Source: Sphingomonas sp. LC-1 (GTDB lineage: Bacteria > Pseudomonadota > Alphaproteobacteria > Sphingomonadales > Sphingomonadaceae). From it: a stretch of 64,000 nt of DNA. Where the stretch lies: positions 1 to 64,000 of the forward strand of contig NZ_JANZXB010000014.1 in the NCBI RefSeq assembly GCF_025371035.1, written 5' to 3'. This document shows positions 204 to 64,000 of this stretch, one piece after another. The translations under genes and the position numbers were made by a program. The notes beneath the pieces are model-generated. The model was not told the origin of the DNA. It worked only from the letters and a program-made list of their open reading frames with translations, and did no database searches. The first letter of the stretch is position 1; each line of letters begins with the position of its first letter.

Positions 204-1345
204 ATGGCATATCATAACTATGCTTCGGACTCGCTTGTGCAAAAGCTGAGTGCCGGAGGCGCTAAGCTTTCCGGCGCTCAATATATCTATAATGAGAATG
301 AAGCGGTCCAGAAATTTGAAGGAATAGTTTCTCAAGTAAATGAGATAATTAACGGACTTTTTACATTCGCAGAAATTCGCGGTAATGTAAAATTTGCTGT
401 TGCTGGCAAAAACTACTCGCCTTTTCAGGTTTCTTGCCTTGGTAATGATGATTTTGTTATTCTTATTGATCACGACGCATTTTGCTATCTTGCGAATTTA
501 TGCGCGCGAGTTCAAACGCTTGAGCCTCTGGCAAAATTCGTAAACGCTGAACAGAAAGTAATTAATCGCGATTATAAGGGGAAGTATCTTCTTGATATTG
601 CGAAAGATATTGCTTTTTATCCTGAAAATATCTCAGAAGTGATATCGGGATATGTTCATATGACCATATTCCAAGCCGCACTTATGCATATCATAGCACA
701 TGAGTATGCTCATATCTTGCATGGCCATTTTGATTTTTTAAACTCTACGGAATTTCTAAAATTTGCAGAGAATGATGAAGACAAGGCGCTGACGAGGCGA
801 GCGTTGGAGATGGACGCTGACAGTTCGGCTGCTTCTGCTGTCTTCGACATGTTCGAATCTTTTATACATGGTAGGATAATTAGAGGTGATTGGATTGACG
901 GTGTCGACGATAAATTGATTAGATCGCATTATCTGACCGGATCATTTCTTTCTGTGATATATCTGGAATGTTTATCGTCAAATCTAAATCCCAAATATCA
1001 TCCAATTGGATTTGCGAGATTTCTTACGATTTCAGACGTTTTGCCGTTCATATCAGTGGGATGTCCTTTGAGCACGTCAAATTAATTGAGGGTGCTCGTA
1101 GTCATATCGCGGAATCTTTTGCAATCTTAAGTGGGGGGCTGGAACATCTCTGGCATCCTATGGCGGCAGATACTATCATTTATGAGGATGGGAAAACGCC
1201 TGTTGCCCTTTATACGGGCATGGGCATTGCGGAGGGGTATTCGCACATTGATCCCTTGCTTCGGCGCTGGTCACGCATAAGACCCGAACTTGCAATCTTT
1301 CAACGTGGCGGAACGCTGGCTCCGGCTCAGGCTGAACCGATTTAG
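204..1345 (+). pseudogene. Lit-like (peptidase U49-type) HEXXH metallopeptidase, apparently frameshifted
   Basis: The upstream frame (204-1085, 293 aa) has HEYAH at residues 166-170, an ExxAD motif (E202, D206), and HPIGFAR at about 266-272. This order, zinc HEXXH then ExxAD then HPxxxxR, is that of phage-exclusion protein Lit, which cleaves EF-Tu during infection. In Lit the HP motif is followed by about 50 more helical residues. Here the frame ends soon after, while a second frame continues from about 1043 to 1345 with SFEHVKLIEGARSHIAESF. Adding one T to the T4 run at 1039-1042 joins the frames into a protein of about 380 aa reading ISDVFAVHISG across the junction. The gene is AT-rich, unlike its neighbours, and follows an IS end, so transfer is likely. 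It could be a pseudogene, a sequencing indel or, less likely, two overlapping genes. Confidence 0.65.
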
Positions 1346-1455
1346 CAACATGCAAAATGTGATCGGAAATACTGCCGGGAAGGATTCGGTGTTTCTATGT
1401 CGACGAACATTTAGACGGGTGTAAAGCGGGACACTCGCTGGGAGCCCCGAATAGA

Positions 1456-1497
1456 AAACGGCCCGTTCTTCCCATCGGAAGAACGAGCCGTTTCTCT
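1456..1497 (-). terminator. Rho-independent terminator
   Basis: AAACGGCCCGTTCTTCC (1456-1472) pairs with GGAAGAACGAGCCGTTT (1477-1493) with one mismatch and a four-base loop. Read on the minus strand it follows the stop of the small exported protein by about 20 bases and ends in a T-rich stretch. It may also stop readthrough from the plus-strand gene. Confidence 0.8.
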
Positions 1498-1513
1498 CAA
1501 GCCGTAAGGCAGA

Positions 1514-1810
1514 TCAGCGAGCGCTGGTCTCGACGCCCGCGCCCAGTGCGCCACGGGCTTCGTCGGTCGTGAAGGCGACCTGGGTGTTGCCGGTCGTGCC
1601 GGTCACGCGGTGGCCCTTCACGACGAAGCGGAACGGCTCGGCGCCGGGATAGCGGCGGCCTTCGATGACGGCATGGCCGTTCTCGGTCGAACGGGTGTAG
1701 ACATAGGTGCTGCCCTCATGGACGAAGCGCTGTTCGCCTTCGGAGGCGATTGCGCCAACGGCGGGGACGGCGGCAACGGCAGCGGCCAGGATCAGGATGG
1801 TCTTGCGCAT
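1514..1810 (-). CDS. Small exported protein, function unknown
   Basis: The 98-residue product has a clear Sec signal peptide: MRKT, then a hydrophobic Ala/Leu/Val core, with likely cleavage after about residue 22 (GAIAS region). The mature part is about 75 residues and rich in Gly, Thr and Val, with no cysteine and no motif I recognise. It stands alone between two plus-strand genes and has its own terminator. The coding call rests on the signal peptide and GC-rich codon use. No function is proposed. Confidence 0.7.
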   Translation of the reverse strand: MRKTILILAAAVAAVPAVGAIASEGEQRFVHEGSTYVYTRSTENGHAVIEGRRYPGAEPFRFVVKGHRVTGTTGNTQVAFTTDEARGALGAGVETSAR

Positions 1811-2042
1811 GATCGAAACTCTCTCGCTATAGGGCGTGGAGCCGGATCAGGTCCTCTCGCGCGTTTTCGCGCTTAACTTTCGTATACCGAATTATTGCAT
1901 CGCAGCATGAGCCGCAACTGCAAAGGGTTTCAGGGCAATTGCATTCGGCGCAATCGCTGCGTGCGGCGGCCAAGGCATGATTTGAAGCGAGGCTCCGATT
2001 TCGCTAGAGCGCAACGCTTTGCTACCCCGATCGGACGATGTG

Positions 2043-3776
2043 ATGACCCTCTACACCCGCTTTGCCGCGCATATTGATGCGGCGCTGGACACGCTGGTCG
2101 CCGCCGGCACGCTGCCCGGCGGGCTGGATCGCCGCAATGTGACGGTCGAGCCGCCGCGCGATGCGTCGCATGGCGATCTCGCCACCAACGCGGCGATGGT
2201 GCTGGCCAAGCCCGCCGGCACGAACCCGCGCGCACTGGCCGAGGCGATCGCCGCCGAACTGGGCAAGCTGGACGAAGTGGACAGCGTGTCGGTCGCGGGG
2301 CCAGGCTTCCTCAACATGCGGCTGACCGATGCGGCATGGCGCGACGAGCTGGCCGCGATCCCGCAGGCTGCGGGCGATTATGGCCGCTCGACGCGCGGGA
2401 ATGGCGTGACGGTCAATATCGAATATGTCTCGGCCAATCCGACGGGCCCGATGCATATGGGCCATTGCCGCGGTGCGGTGGTGGGCGATGCGCTTGCCAC
2501 GTTGCTGGAGTTTGCCGGTCACAAGGTGATCCGCGAATATTATGTCAACGATGCGGGCGGCCAGGTCGACGTGCTCGCCCGCTCGGCGCATCTCCGCTAC
2601 CGCGAGGCGCTGGGTGAGACGATCGAAATTCCCGAAGGCCTGTATCCGGGCGAGTATCTGAAGCCGGTGGGCGCGGCGCTGGCCGCCGAGTTCGGCGACC
2701 GTTACGTGTCGGCGCCTGAGAGCGAATGGCTGATCCTGTTCCGCACCCGCGCGGTGGCGGCGATGATGGCGATGATCCGCGAGGATCTGGCGCTGCTGGG
2801 CATCCATCACGACCTGTTTTCCTCCGAGGCCGAGTTGCAGGCGGCGGGCAAGCCCGAAGCCGCCGAGGCGGAGTTGCGCTCGCGCGGTCTGGTCTATGAC
2901 GGCGTGCTGGAGGCCCCCAAGGGCGAGACGCCCGAGGATTGGGAGCCGGTCGAGTTGCCGCTGTTCCGCTCCAGCCAGTTCGGCGACGATCAGGATCGCC
3001 CGATCAAGAAGTCGAACGGCGCCTGGACCTATTTCGGTGCCGACCTGGCCTATCACTATCAGAAGGCGCAGACCGCCGATCAGCTGATTGACATCTGGGG
3101 CGCCGACCATGCGGGCACCGTCAAGCGGATCGTCGCGGCCGTCGAGGCGCTGACCGGCGGCAAGACCAAGTTCGACGTCAAGTTGGTCCAGATGGTCCGC
3201 CTGCTGCGTGGCGGCGAGCCGGTGAAGATGTCCAAGCGCGCGGGCAATTTCGTGACGCTGGCCGATGTCGTGCGCGAAGTCGGCAAGGATGTGGTGCGCT
3301 TCACCATGCTGACCCGCCGCGCCGACGCGCAGATGGACTTCGACTTCGCCAAGGTGGTCGAGGCGTCGAAGGACAATCCCGTCTTCTACGTGCAATACGC
3401 CCATGCCCGCATCGCCTCGCTCAAGCGCCGCGCGGCCGAGGCGGGGATCAGCCTTGAGAATGGCGGTGCCGCCGATCTGTCGCTGCTCGATGCGGAAGAT
3501 CTGGGTCTGGTGAAGCTGGCGGCGCAATTCCCGCGCATCGTCGAGACGGCGGCGGCGGCGCGCGAACCGCACCGAATCGCCTTTTACCTTTACGACTTGG
3601 CCGCTGCCTTCCACGCGGCGTGGAATGTCGGCAACGATCGCCCCGATCGCCGCTTCCTGATCGCGGAGAATCCCGACGTCACGCGTGCGCGTCTTTTCCT
3701 CAGCGATGGGATCGGGCAAATCATTCGTAACGGTTTGGCGCTCATGGGTGTCGAAGCGGTTTCGGAGATGAAGTGA
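2043..3776 (+). CDS. argS: Arginyl-tRNA synthetase
   Basis: This class I aminoacyl-tRNA synthetase (577 aa, usual family length) charges tRNA-Arg in the cytoplasm. The HIGH signature appears as HMGH in PTGPMHMGHCRGA, and the KMSKS loop as KMSKR. The N-terminal additional domain (about residues 1-110) and the C-terminal anticodon-binding DALR-type domain are both present. An upstream in-frame TTG at 2019 exists, but ATG 2043 gives the usual MTLYTRF start with GGAC just upstream. The stop overlaps the next start (TGATG), so argS and the SPOR gene are probably co-transcribed. Confidence 0.97.
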   Translation: MTLYTRFAAHIDAALDTLVAAGTLPGGLDRRNVTVEPPRDASHGDLATNAAMVLAKPAGTNPRALAEAIAAELGKLDEVDSVSVAGPGFLNMRLTDAAWRDELAAIPQAAGDYGRSTRGNGVTVNIEYVSANPTGPMHMGHCRGAVVGDALATLLEFAGHKVIREYYVNDAGGQVDVLARSAHLRYREALGETIEIPEGLYPGEYLKPVGAALAAEFGDRYVSAPESEWLILFRTRAVAAMMAMIREDLALLGIHHDLFSSEAELQAAGKPEAAEAELRSRGLVYDGVLEAPKGETPEDWEPVELPLFRSSQFGDDQDRPIKKSNGAWTYFGADLAYHYQKAQTADQLIDIWGADHAGTVKRIVAAVEALTGGKTKFDVKLVQMVRLLRGGEPVKMSKRAGNFVTLADVVREVGKDVVRFTMLTRRADAQMDFDFAKVVEASKDNPVFYVQYAHARIASLKRRAAEAGISLENGGAADLSLLDAEDLGLVKLAAQFPRIVETAAAAREPHRIAFYLYDLAAAFHAAWNVGNDRPDRRFLIAENPDVTRARLFLSDGIGQIIRNGLALMGVEAVSEMK

Positions 3777-5715: not shown

Positions 5716-6438
5716 ATGACGGGGGAACAGCTGACGCTCGATCTGGAGGGGTGGGAAGGGCCGCTGGACCTGCTGCTGTCGCTGGCCCGCTCGCAAAAGG
5801 TCGATCTGCGACAGATTTCGATCCTCGCTCTGGTCGAACAATATTTGCGCTTCGTCGATCGGGCGGGGCGGATGCAGTTGGAACTGGCCGCCGATTATCT
5901 CGTAATGGCGGCGTGGCTGGCCTATCTCAAATCCTCGCTGCTGCTTCCGCGCCAGCCGGAGGAAGAGCCTGATCCGGAAGACATGGCGCTGCGCCTGCAA
6001 CTCCGCCTCGAACGGCTGGCGGCGATGCGCGAAGCGGGGGCGCGGCTGATGGCGCGGGACCGGCTGGGCCGCGACGTCTTCCCGCGCGGCGCGCCCGAGG
6101 GGCTGGCGGTACAGCGCAAGGCGATGTGGCAGGCGGAGCTTTATGATCTGATTGCCGCCTATGGCCGGATCAATGCCCGGACGCGCCCGGTGATGCATGT
6201 CGTGGCGGATCGGCAGGTCATGACGCTGGAGGCCGCGCTGGAACGGGTCTCGATGCTGGTCGGCAGCCGGGTGGAGTGGTCCGCGATCGAAACCTTCCTG
6301 CCCGATGGCAGCGAGAGGTTGAGGCGATCCGCGCTCGCCTCCAGCTTCCTCGCGGTGCTCGAACTCGCACGACAGGGCAAAGTCGAGTTGCGCCAGGCCG
6401 CACCCTTTGCCCCGCTGATGATCCGGCAACCGGCATGA
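5716..6438 (+). CDS. scpA: Segregation and condensation protein A
   Basis: ScpA is the kleisin subunit that bridges SMC heads in the SMC-ScpAB condensin, which compacts and segregates the chromosome. The 240-residue sequence opens with the family hallmark EGWEGPLDLLLSLARSQKVDL and contains ADYLVMAAWLAYLKSSLLLP. The C-terminal winged-helix region is present. The stop overlaps the scpB start (ATGA), so the two are translationally coupled. smc itself is not in this window. Confidence 0.95.
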   Translation: MTGEQLTLDLEGWEGPLDLLLSLARSQKVDLRQISILALVEQYLRFVDRAGRMQLELAADYLVMAAWLAYLKSSLLLPRQPEEEPDPEDMALRLQLRLERLAAMREAGARLMARDRLGRDVFPRGAPEGLAVQRKAMWQAELYDLIAAYGRINARTRPVMHVVADRQVMTLEAALERVSMLVGSRVEWSAIETFLPDGSERLRRSALASSFLAVLELARQGKVELRQAAPFAPLMIRQPA

Positions 6439-7055
6439 GCGGGATCGACCCGACCGTTCGGGCGGTGGAGGCGGTGCTGTTCGCCTCGCCCGAGCCGATG
6501 GGGATCGATTCGATCCGCGCGCATGTCGGCGTCGGCCAGCGCGGCGGCGACATACGATCGGCACTCGAGACGCTGGAAGCGCAATATCGCGGGCGCGGCA
6601 TCGTGCTGGTCCGGCGGGCTGATCGCTGGCATTTCCAGACCGCGCCCGATCTGGCGCATCTGCTTCGGCGCGACCGGGAGGAGACGCGTCGCCTGTCGCG
6701 CGCCGCGATCGAGACGCTGGCGATCATCGCCTATCACGAACCGGTCAGCCGCGCGGAGATCGAGGCCATTCGCGGTGTCGCCATTTCCAAGGGGACGTTG
6801 GACGTTCTGATGGAGGCGGGCTGGGTCCGTCCGGCGGGTCGACGCGAGGTGCCGGGGCGGCCGCTCATCTATGCGACGACGCCCGCCTTCCTTCAGCATT
6901 TCGGGCTGACCAGTCGGCGCGACCTGCCGGGGATCGAGGATTTGCGGGCTGCGGGCCTGCTCGATCCTGTCGATCTGGCGCTGGAGCGAATGGGCGACGA
7001 CGACCTGCCCGACAACCCGGCGGAGTCGCAAGGCGAAGCCCGGAAGGCCGATTGA
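6435..7055 (+). CDS. scpB: Segregation and condensation protein B
   Basis: ScpB (206 aa) dimerises and binds the ScpA kleisin in the SMC complex. The two winged-helix domains are recognisable: VRAVEAVLFASPEPM at the N-terminus and ALETLAIIAYHEPVSRAEIE in the second half, the family signature. GRREVPGRPLIYATT near the end is also typical. ATG 6435 overlaps the scpA stop by four bases and is preferred over longer in-frame starts. The acidic C-terminal tail (DDDLPDNPAESQG) is of no known role. Confidence 0.94.
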   Translation: MSGIDPTVRAVEAVLFASPEPMGIDSIRAHVGVGQRGGDIRSALETLEAQYRGRGIVLVRRADRWHFQTAPDLAHLLRRDREETRRLSRAAIETLAIIAYHEPVSRAEIEAIRGVAISKGTLDVLMEAGWVRPAGRREVPGRPLIYATTPAFLQHFGLTSRRDLPGIEDLRAAGLLDPVDLALERMGDDDLPDNPAESQGEARKAD

Positions 7056-7141
7056 TCGCTTTCCTTTGCGTCATGGCCGCGTCACAATGCCTTGCCACGG
7101 CTTTGGCATGTCCGCTGACGGCCGTTCGCATCGCTCAACCA

Positions 7142-7170
7142 TTGCCGCTGGCGATGCCAAGGCCTAGATA
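7142..7170 (+). promoter_or_regulatory. Candidate promoter for tatABC
   Basis: TTGCCG at 7142-7147 and TAGATA at 7165-7170 are separated by 17 bases, an acceptable housekeeping sigma factor arrangement, 26 bases upstream of the tatA start. AGGAG at 7184-7188 serves as ribosome binding site. Seen by eye only. Confidence 0.4.
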
Positions 7171-7196
7171 GACTATAGATTCCTAGGAGACGCGCC

Positions 7197-7433
7197 ATGG
7201 GCAGCTTCAGCCCGATTCACCTTCTCGTCCTCGCGGTCGTCGCGATCCTTCTGCTCGGCGGTGGCCGGTTCTCCAACCTGATGGGCGATGTCGCCAAGGG
7301 TGTGAAGAATTTCAAGAAGGGCATGGCCGAGGAAGACGAGACGCACGCCAAGCCGTCCGCCCGCATCGAGGCGCAGAAGTCGGCTGAGCCCGCCTTCGAC
7401 CGCGATGGCGAGCGCGTGCGCGACGATCGCTGA
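7197..7433 (+). CDS. tatA: Sec-independent protein translocase TatA
   Basis: The 78-residue TatA forms the oligomeric pore-like component of the twin-arginine translocon, which exports folded proteins. An N-terminal transmembrane helix (HLLVLAVVAILLLGGGRF), a hinge and an amphipathic helix (VAKGVKNFKKGM) are followed by a charged tail. The conserved FKKGM motif is intact. It is the first gene of tatABC, with a good Shine-Dalgarno (AGGAG). Spacing to tatB is 29 bases. Confidence 0.96.
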   Translation: MGSFSPIHLLVLAVVAILLLGGGRFSNLMGDVAKGVKNFKKGMAEEDETHAKPSARIEAQKSAEPAFDRDGERVRDDR

Positions 7434-7462
7434 TCCGGTTCGCCTTCTAACACCGGATCTCC

Positions 7463-7888
7463 ATGTTCAACATCGACTCGAGTGAGTTCCTGCTGGTCGC
7501 CATCGTGGCGCTGGTCGTGATCGGTCCCAAGGATTTGCCCAAGGCGATGCGGGTCGTCGGCTATTGGGTGGGCAAGGCGCGTGGCGTCTCGCGGCAGTTC
7601 CGGCAGGGCTTCGACAATATGGTGCGCGAGGCCGAGCTGGAAGAAATGGAAAAGCGCTGGGCGGCGGAAAATGAGCGCATCATGCGTGAACATGCCGCCG
7701 ACGCGCCGCCCACTTCCCCGCTCGTCGACACGCCTTCCGCTTCCGAGGCCACCGTCCAGGACGGGGCAAGGACGGAGCATGGGGACCATAGCGACCAACC
7801 GGTCATGGTCGAAAAGCCCGTGGTCGCCGCTGCGCCGGTCGAGACCGCACCTCATGCCCCGCGTCCCAATGAGGGGGCGGCGTCGTGA
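7463..7888 (+). CDS. tatB: Sec-independent protein translocase TatB
   Basis: TatB (141 aa) partners TatC in recognising twin-arginine signal peptides. The N-terminus MFNIDSSEFLLVAIVALVVIGPKDLP is the TatB hallmark, with the helix-hinge Gly-Pro preserved. A long amphipathic helix follows, then an Ala/Pro/Glu-rich variable tail. It lies between tatA and tatC and overlaps the tatC start by four bases (GTGA). Confidence 0.95.
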   Translation: MFNIDSSEFLLVAIVALVVIGPKDLPKAMRVVGYWVGKARGVSRQFRQGFDNMVREAELEEMEKRWAAENERIMREHAADAPPTSPLVDTPSASEATVQDGARTEHGDHSDQPVMVEKPVVAAAPVETAPHAPRPNEGAAS

Positions 7889-8670
7889 GCGACGATCATG
7901 ACGAGATCGACGCCAGCCGCGCGCCCTTGCTCGACCATCTGATCGAGCTGCGCCGGCGCCTGCTCTATTGCATCGTCGCGATCGCCCTGGGCTTCGGCGT
8001 ATCGATGTATTTCTCGGAGTCCATCTTCGGCTTCCTTGCCAAGCCGCTGCTCGCGGCGGGGCAGGGCAAGCTGGTCTATACCGAGATTTTCGAGGCCTTT
8101 TTCGTTCAGGTGAAGGTGGCGTTCTTCGCCTCGGTGATGATCGCCTTCCCAGTCATCGCCAACCAACTGTGGCAATTCGTCGCGCCGGGGCTGTATCGCA
8201 AGGAAAAGCGGGCCCTGCTGCCCTTCCTGCTGGCGACGCCGGTGCTGTTCCTGATGGGCGCGGCGATGGCCTATTATATTGCCATTCCGATGGCGCTGCA
8301 CTTCCTGCTGGGCTTTGACGGCGTGGTCGGCGGCGTGCGGCGCGAGGCGCTGCCCGCCATCGGCAACTATCTGTCGTTCATCATGCAGTTCCTCTTCGCC
8401 TTCGGTCTGGCGTTCCTGCTGCCGGTGCTGCTGATGCTGCTGGAGCGGGCGGGGATCGTCACGCGCAAGCAGCTGATCGGCGCGCGGCGTTACGCGATCG
8501 TGGCGGCGACGGCGATCGCGGCCGTGTTGACGCCGCCGGACCTGATGTCGCAGGTGCTGCTCGCGGTGCCGCTGATCATCCTGTACGAGCTGGCGATCAT
8601 CGGCATCTGGTTTACCGAGCGCTCGCGGGCAAAGCAGCTGCCGGACGAGGAAGCCGACGCGACGGCTTGA
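7885..8670 (+). CDS. tatC: Sec-independent protein translocase TatC
   Basis: TatC (261 aa, usual length) is the polytopic receptor of the Tat translocon. The family motif LLDHLIELRRRLLYC is at the N-terminus, six hydrophobic segments follow, and SFIMQFLFAFGLAFLLPV is in the fourth helix region. The start is GTG, overlapping the tatB stop. A strong terminator follows at 8689, closing the tatABC operon. Confidence 0.97.
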   Translation: MSDDHDEIDASRAPLLDHLIELRRRLLYCIVAIALGFGVSMYFSESIFGFLAKPLLAAGQGKLVYTEIFEAFFVQVKVAFFASVMIAFPVIANQLWQFVAPGLYRKEKRALLPFLLATPVLFLMGAAMAYYIAIPMALHFLLGFDGVVGGVRREALPAIGNYLSFIMQFLFAFGLAFLLPVLLMLLERAGIVTRKQLIGARRYAIVAATAIAAVLTPPDLMSQVLLAVPLIILYELAIIGIWFTERSRAKQLPDEEADATA

Positions 8671-62665: not shown

Positions 62666-64000
62666 TTAGTTCGACTTTTTCTTGGCCGCCTGTTCCGCCT
62701 TCCACGCGCGGAACTGTTCGATCGCGACCGAGCGTTTCAGAATCTTCGCCCAGGGATCGACCACGACGTGTGCGTCTTCGGGAATGGTCAAGGTGCCCGT
62801 GCCGTCCGTCATCGGCAACGTCTCGACCCTATCGCCCACCTGCACATCGACCGGCATCGGGAAGGGCCCGCCGCCCGGTACCTTCCATGTCAGGGTCAGC
62901 TGATCGCCGCTGCGCGTCTCGACGATCTCGGGCAGCGCCGCCTGGCGCAGATAGACGTTGAAGAACCAGCCATAATCCTTGCCCGTCACCTGCCGGACAA
63001 AGCCCTCATATTCCTTGGTCGAGCCATAGCGCGGCGTGAAATTCCCCGGCTTCGGATCGGTGCGACCATAGACGGCAAGTCGCGTCACATCCCAAAAGGC
63101 CTTGTCGCCGATCAGGTTGCGTAGGGTGTGGAGCATCCACGACCCCTTCATATAGATGTCGAGACCGGGGCCGCCCTTGGCGTCCTCATAGACGTCCTGC
63201 TCGGTCATGCTGCGATCATGGACGATGGGCGACTTGTTCGCGATCTGGCCGCGCTGCGTATCCATCATCACCGCATAGCGCGCCTCGCCCTCGCGCCAGC
63301 GGCCATAGCTGGGCTGCATGTAACTGCCATAGCCCTCGTGCAGCCAGAAATCGTCCCAGTCGACATTGGTCAGCTGGTTGCCGAACCATTCATGGCTGAA
63401 CTCATGCTGGAACAGCCAGTCGAAGCCCTCGGGCGCCTTGGCATATTCATTGCCATAGGCGTTGATCGTCTGGTGCTCCATGCCCTTGTGCGGGGTTTCG
63501 ACCACGCCCAGCTTCTCGTCGCCGAAGGGGAAGGGGCCGACCGTCGATTCGAAGAAATCCAGCGTCGGCGCGAACTCGGCGAACAGGCCTTCGGCCTTCT
63601 GCTTCTCGCCGGGCAGATACCAGTAGAACATCGGGATCGTATTGCCGAAGCGGCTCTTGTACGAACCCTCGACCACCTCATAGGGGCCGACGTTCAGCGC
63701 GATGGCATAGGTGTTGGGATGCTTGGTCCGCCAGTTCCAGCGGGTGCGGCCGTCGGGCAGCGTATCGACGCCCAGCAGCACGCCGTTGGAGGGGGCCTTC
63801 AACCCCTTGGGCACGGTGATGTGGAGCGTGACGACCCCCGGCTCGCCCATCGGATAGTCGAGGCAGGGCCAGAACAGGTCGCAGCCATAACCCTGTGCGG
63901 TCGTCGCGAACCAGGGGCGGCCGTCCGGTGTTTTGGCCCAGACCACGCCCGTGTCCCAGGGCGCGCGCACCGCGACATGCGGAGTGCCGCCATAGGTGAT
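62666..64000 (-). CDS. M1-family metallopeptidase (5' end outside the window)
   Basis: The visible 444 residues are the C-terminal part of an M1 aminopeptidase-type gluzincin: QHEFSHEWFGNQLTN holds HEXXH, and the third ligand Glu is in WLHEGYG 22 residues on. The upstream GMEN motif appears as the variant KGMEHQTINAYG. The last residues AAKKKSN are charged. The frame is open to 64000, so the signal peptide and N-domain are outside. It probably trims peptides in the periplasm or cytoplasm. Confidence 0.92.
   Translation of the reverse strand: MTYGGTPHVAVRAPWDTGVVWAKTPDGRPWFATTAQGYGCDLFWPCLDYPMGEPGVVTLHITVPKGLKAPSNGVLLGVDTLPDGRTRWNWRTKHPNTYAIALNVGPYEVVEGSYKSRFGNTIPMFYWYLPGEKQKAEGLFAEFAPTLDFFESTVGPFPFGDEKLGVVETPHKGMEHQTINAYGNEYAKAPEGFDWLFQHEFSHEWFGNQLTNVDWDDFWLHEGYGSYMQPSYGRWREGEARYAVMMDTQRGQIANKSPIVHDRSMTEQDVYEDAKGGPGLDIYMKGSWMLHTLRNLIGDKAFWDVTRLAVYGRTDPKPGNFTPRYGSTKEYEGFVRQVTGKDYGWFFNVYLRQAALPEIVETRSGDQLTLTWKVPGGGPFPMPVDVQVGDRVETLPMTDGTGTLTIPEDAHVVVDPWAKILKRSVAIEQFRAWKAEQAAKKKSN

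Follow-up and report, generated by a model that had tools for sequence, protein, structure and literature searches.

A frame-split gene for a putative M48-like zinc metallopeptidase in Sphingomonas sp. LC-1 and its intact relatives, many of them among phage genes

Two overlapping open reading frames (ORFs) lie at the left end of a 64,000-nucleotide stretch of the Sphingomonas sp. LC-1 genome (contig NZ_JANZXB010000014.1, positions 1 to 64,000; hereafter the window), and they raise the question of whether they are the remains of a single gene and, if so, what its intact counterparts do. An earlier note on this DNA had described them as a frameshifted metallopeptidase gene resembling the phage-exclusion protease Lit. 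On balance, we favor the interpretation that the locus is a split gene whose product would be a soluble zinc metallopeptidase, M48-like (Lit-like) and belonging to a family carried by prophages, that the window copy has decayed, and that the intact forms exclude phages.

The features of the locus are collected in Table 1. The longer frame encodes the catalytic region, in which the HEYAH motif falls within a more extended HExxHxxxGH motif. In an alignment of 13 proteins including that of the window, H166, E167, H170, G174, H175, E202, D204, A205, D206, H266, P267, and R272 are invariant, and the same 12 positions are identical in all 14 relatives compared, which bears out the earlier assignment to the HExxH metallopeptidases. 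By analogy with M48 peptidases and Lit, the acidic motif probably provides the third metal ligand. A profile was built from the C-terminal parts of the relatives with the window excluded, and was run against all stop-to-stop ORFs in the window, 1337 in number (E limit, 10); its sole match was the ORF at 923–1342 (E 7.9e-5), carried mainly by the last 30 residues, in agreement with the claim that the C-terminal part continues in another frame. Among the 12 rows of this profile, that of L025 had been trimmed at an incorrect HPxxxxR, so that it contributed few residues only, and the 13th protein (L029), which has no HPxxxxR, was omitted. A whole-family profile matched both frames (E 3.7e-16 and 1.1e-4), together with four window ORFs at chance level (E 0.3 to 6.2), and pairwise BLAST of the second frame gave agreeing matches (E 4e-5 and 5e-6); the stretch from about 1086 to 1240 showed no significant alignment to the relatives.

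In all 12 aligned relatives (alignment A4), the whole gene occupies one frame of 351–400 codons, and the window copy is therefore a split gene. Judged from the sequence, the two frames are thus one gene divided by a frame break, and the same two-ORF arrangement, for which the earlier note had proposed that orthologues be compared, was seen in none of the 12. Because the C-terminal match lies in the other frame and HPxxxxR is still in the first, the break is placed within 1020–1085; position 1043, proposed previously, is possible, and the site is bounded only to this interval. Up to 21 of the last residues of the main frame are consequently out of frame. The C-terminal part, including its near-invariant W and L (alignment A5), is lost from the main frame. 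The window copy is most likely dead, a pseudogene, and the single ORFs of the relatives support the earlier suggestion of a decaying gene.

Table 1. Coordinates of the split gene, its motifs, the adjoining element, and the small partner ORFs of relatives
Feature	Location	Strand	Basis or remark
3′ end of IS5-family element (end of transposase gene and of element), also contig start	1..128	+	plasmid matches, same-genome copies
Main part of split gene, HExxH metallopeptidase catalytic region, 293 aa	204..1085	+	ORF, alignment, profile, predicted structure
Second open frame with C-terminal part of same gene	923..1345	+	start at 968 in the ORF list; conserved terminal stretch, 1241–1333
HEYAH zinc-binding/catalytic motif, residues 166–170	699..713	+	alignment
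E-M-D-A-D acidic motif (E-x-D-A-D), residues 202–206	807..821	+	alignment
HPxxxxR motif, residues 266–272, last conserved point of first frame	999..1019	+	alignment
Interval that must hold the frame break	1020..1085	+	after conserved R, before stop
Partner ORF, ~60 aa	L016:5535-5726		overlaps peptidase gene end
Partner ORF, ~60 aa	L017:6749-6922		directly after peptidase gene
Partner ORF, ~60 aa	L025:about 7173-7328		no ATG start seen
Partner ORF, ~60 aa	L026:5180-5368		directly after peptidase gene
Partner ORF, ~60 aa	L027:6966-7157		overlaps peptidase gene end
Partner ORF, ~60 aa	L030:6966-7148		overlaps peptidase gene end

Single-protein scans of genome contigs, plasmids, phages, and viral contigs with the window protein, as well as its comparison with Protein Data Bank (PDB) sequences, found no relative. 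Among 201 genomes of the genus, including its own, three other genomes matched, each with an ORF of 389–400 aa, and 385 genomes of the class yielded one further clear relative (L008, 351 aa) and a 464-aa match with HExxH (L005). Three other candidates were dropped as unrelated: an ORF of another kind, as judged by eye (L006), one containing three stops (L007), and one that appeared MutL-like by eye (L009). When IMG/VR was scanned with an alignment built from these relatives, nine loci were identified; a second scan returned six, four of them on contigs already found, and thus added two (L059 and L061). With alignment A2, genome contigs gave 589 pattern matches, none of which was confirmed, and PDB sequences gave a single chance-level match (E 0.74). 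Two Rhizobium plasmid records also carry the family gene. The family is rare, being present, besides the window genome, in 3 of 395 genomes of the order and, at a stricter limit (E up to 1e-8), in 2 of the 397 further genomes searched in the phylum. In a 15-row tree, the window protein was not firmly placed, its branch being long and weakly supported. As a separate observation, another genome of the genus carries two adjacent HExxH genes of ordinary GC content, distant relatives of the family, at L019:5586-7896.

Many of the relatives sit among phage genes. A terminase gene is present in the stretches of L027 and L031 and a head-morphogenesis gene in that of L028; L017 carries DUF3164, known from Mu-like phages; in L032, the neighboring gene that was tested gave a match to a lipase family of the moron class; and L024 and L026 contain AAA ATPases like those of defense systems. 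In L028 and L032, the gene runs opposite to its nearest neighbors and has 46–48% GC in surroundings of 62–64%. The GC content of the gene is below that of its surroundings in all 14 loci compared (13 of them distinct), and is not lowered in L019 and L020, which stand outside this comparison. On the low-GC phage contig L031, two tandem peptidase copies (5815-8079) occur near the terminase gene.

The window copy shows the same bias, with 42.4% GC over the whole gene versus 66.3% for window positions 1501–64000. Its two parts differ (39.3% in 204–1085 versus 52.7% in 1086–1345); with this GC-richer C-terminal piece, the gene may be a mosaic. Among the matches listed, 19 of 20 plasmid records align with the window from position 1 to 127–135 at 82–95% identity, 9 of these 19 being annotated as IS5 family transposase, and the 20th matches window 1491–1898 instead. 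The same 127–128 bases recur at 100% identity on five other contig ends of the genome, and the opposite end of the contig (C6:74290-74422) holds the same IS5-family element at 98% over 133 bases, so that the adjoining IS5 end is borne out. Transfer, as proposed earlier, likewise stands, on the low GC content, the sporadic and prophage-borne relatives, and the neighboring IS5. Window position 1 is the first base of the contig (assembly 4.15 Mb, 48 contigs), and therefore nothing to the left of the window is readable; a comparison of the proteins in the stretch of one relative (L067) with six contig-end pieces, made for the left side of the insertion, gave no match. To the right of the split gene lie a 98-aa ORF and then a long ORF that, judged by eye, encodes arginyl-tRNA synthetase. 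Of 40 other relatives searched, 33 matched window 1380–2300, largely by way of this long ORF, and the segment is therefore chromosomal; the split gene thus sits between the contig end on its left and chromosomal genes on its right. On the minus strand at the far end of the window (62669–64000), an ORF that extends beyond the window edge carries an HEFSH motif, and its match to the family profile is at chance level (E 2.3).

According to the interpretation that we favor, intact members would be made in lysogens, either from the repressor operon or as morons, and would then stay latent; when a competing phage infects, a host or phage protein would be cut and the infection stopped, as with Lit and EF-Tu. 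That the intact forms are anti-phage proteases expressed by lysogens is probable by this analogy. The window copy would have arrived with a mobile element and then lost its surroundings, along with a small downstream partner, if it ever had one; the IS5 element would have approached afterward, leaving what may now be a pseudogene.

The partner in question is an ORF of about 60 aa, of one family (alignment A8), directly after the peptidase gene in six loci (Table 1). It suggests a more specific possibility, which we hold only tentatively: the intact relatives might form an undescribed two-gene exclusion unit, in which an M48-like peptidase with a C-terminal helical domain and a dedicated partner acting as sensor, inhibitor, or antidote are expressed in the lysogen from the repressor operon of prophages resembling Mu; the window copy would then be an eroded remnant of a deeply branching side lineage of this enzyme family. 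A profile of the partner, run across the 201 genus genomes, returned three strong hits (E under 1e-24), each next to an intact peptidase gene; a fourth, weak hit (3.8e-4) fell in a 3.2-kb locus that has no peptidase gene. Two of the genomes with strong hits (G114 and G186) are the sources of L016 and L017, and the third (G091) carries the L027 pair; because the profile was made from such pairs, their co-occurrence only leans toward a link. The profile had no match in the genome of the window, the best score within the window being far away and at chance level (E 0.38), and no convincing score was obtained in L015, L018–L021, L023, L024, L028, L029, L031, or L032. No description of the family or of the peptidase-partner pair was found in literature searches limited to open-access papers.

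The main functional rival, which we regard as unlikely, accepts the same split gene and proposes that the family cuts the prophage's own repressor and thereby controls induction rather than excluding other phages. HExxH proteases of the ImmA type cleave phage-type repressors whose genes adjoin their own, and in four loci (L016, L017, L026, and L027) the family gene likewise lies downstream of a CI-like repressor gene, on the same strand and 0.2 to 3.1 kb away. In addition, one of five A2 members matched Peptidase_M78 (IrrE N-terminal-like) with E 1.1e-4. Unlike the arrangement in ImmA/IrrE-type (M78) systems, however, a profile of the four CI-like repressors, which found again the four from which it was built, left 11 of 17 scanned loci without a match; its one further match, a weak one (E 7.6e-5), fell at L015/L024, two names for a single locus. 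The gene stretches of L028 and L031 contain head or packaging genes, PF06114 (M78) matched neither the window protein (E up to 1) nor seven relatives (E up to 0.1), and the predicted fold of an intact relative goes to M48.

It is distinctly unlikely that the organism's gene is intact and that sequencing or assembly introduced the break by mistake. The second frame remains open for 140 codons and retains conserved end residues, and any break must therefore be recent or artificial; moreover, the site lies about 1 kb from a contig end located in a repeated IS element. An IS repeat, however, is an ordinary cause of a contig end, and the interval 1020–1085 contains no homopolymer longer than four. 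Still less probable is that the truncated product of 293 aa works on its own: the conserved catalytic core is retained and the length is about that of Lit, but the near-invariant W and L are missing, the helix bearing HPxxxxR is shorter in its predicted structure than in that of a relative, residues 284–293 have pLDDT values under 50, and the lost part is still recognizable, which suggests a recent accident. Programmed frameshifting that joins the two frames into a full protein, raised in the earlier note as a regulated variant, is very improbable indeed: both frames are open across the overlap at 923–1085, but −1 frameshifting requires a heptamer in phase, and no in-phase slippery heptamer is present in 920–1085, where the sole XXXYYYZ, at 990, is in the wrong phase and precedes HPxxxxR, and none of the 12 aligned relatives uses such a shift. 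A housekeeping M48 enzyme was set aside because of the prophage setting and the rarity of the family in the phylum.

Returning to the split gene of a prophage-borne peptidase family, the window copy itself carries little weight, being an ordinary relic broken at a contig edge; the interest would lie in the family and its small partner. A gene type that is often carried by prophages and is little known may, in its intact forms, protect the host from other viruses. A scattered prophage family in which Lit-like motifs sit on an M48-like fold would connect Lit with M48 and would offer new candidate exclusion systems.

Among the proteases that exclude phages, Lit is one of the longest known. The Lit protein of prophage e14 shares with the window family the order of HExxH, a downstream acidic motif with D, and HPxxxxR; at 297 aa it is close in length to the window ORF, and it is prophage-borne, as are relatives of the window gene. 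The proposed likeness to Lit stands in this motif order and in a distant profile-profile link (75%, E 2.5e-5, 57 columns), but the Lit family models were not reached: the window protein had no match to PF10463 (Peptidase_U49; E limit, 1), and NCBIfam PRK09672 gave 13.8 bits against a cut-off of 274, second to another weak match. A PF10463 search of 142 genomes and 14 controls found no match even in the controls and is hence uninformative, and no solved structure matched Lit by sequence. The motif order is also not specific to Lit, since HPxxxxR occurs in M48 peptidases as well (comparison of 12 loci, four of them without an ORF). In contrast to Lit, the aligned relatives are longer and have a conserved C-terminal part. 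As a side observation, Lit homologues on Agrobacterium plasmids (L064:765-1628 and L065:762-1625) share 4 bases with a hypothetical gene upstream, and the annotation of L064 divides the Lit region into two genes. According to passages in PMC3014915 and PMC9712102, Lit cleaves EF-Tu between Gly59 and Ile60, aided by Gol, a region of the T4 capsid protein.

For M48, the PF01435 scores were 13.1 bits for the window protein and 19.6 for the best of seven relatives, against a cut-off of 20.3. Foldseek returned no PDB match at E up to 0.001 for the model of an intact relative (L025), and re-alignment of Foldseek's own list matched its predicted fold to the M48 catalytic fold. In BFVD, the sole match at E up to 0.001 was a structural one to A0A8S5NTQ9, an uncharacterized protein of Myoviridae sp. 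cte5Z19 (E 1.3e-10, TM 0.59 on the query, 17% identity). Compared with the M48 enzymes BepA, Ste24/ZMPSTE24, and HtpX, the family adds a C-terminal helical extension and is prophage cargo.
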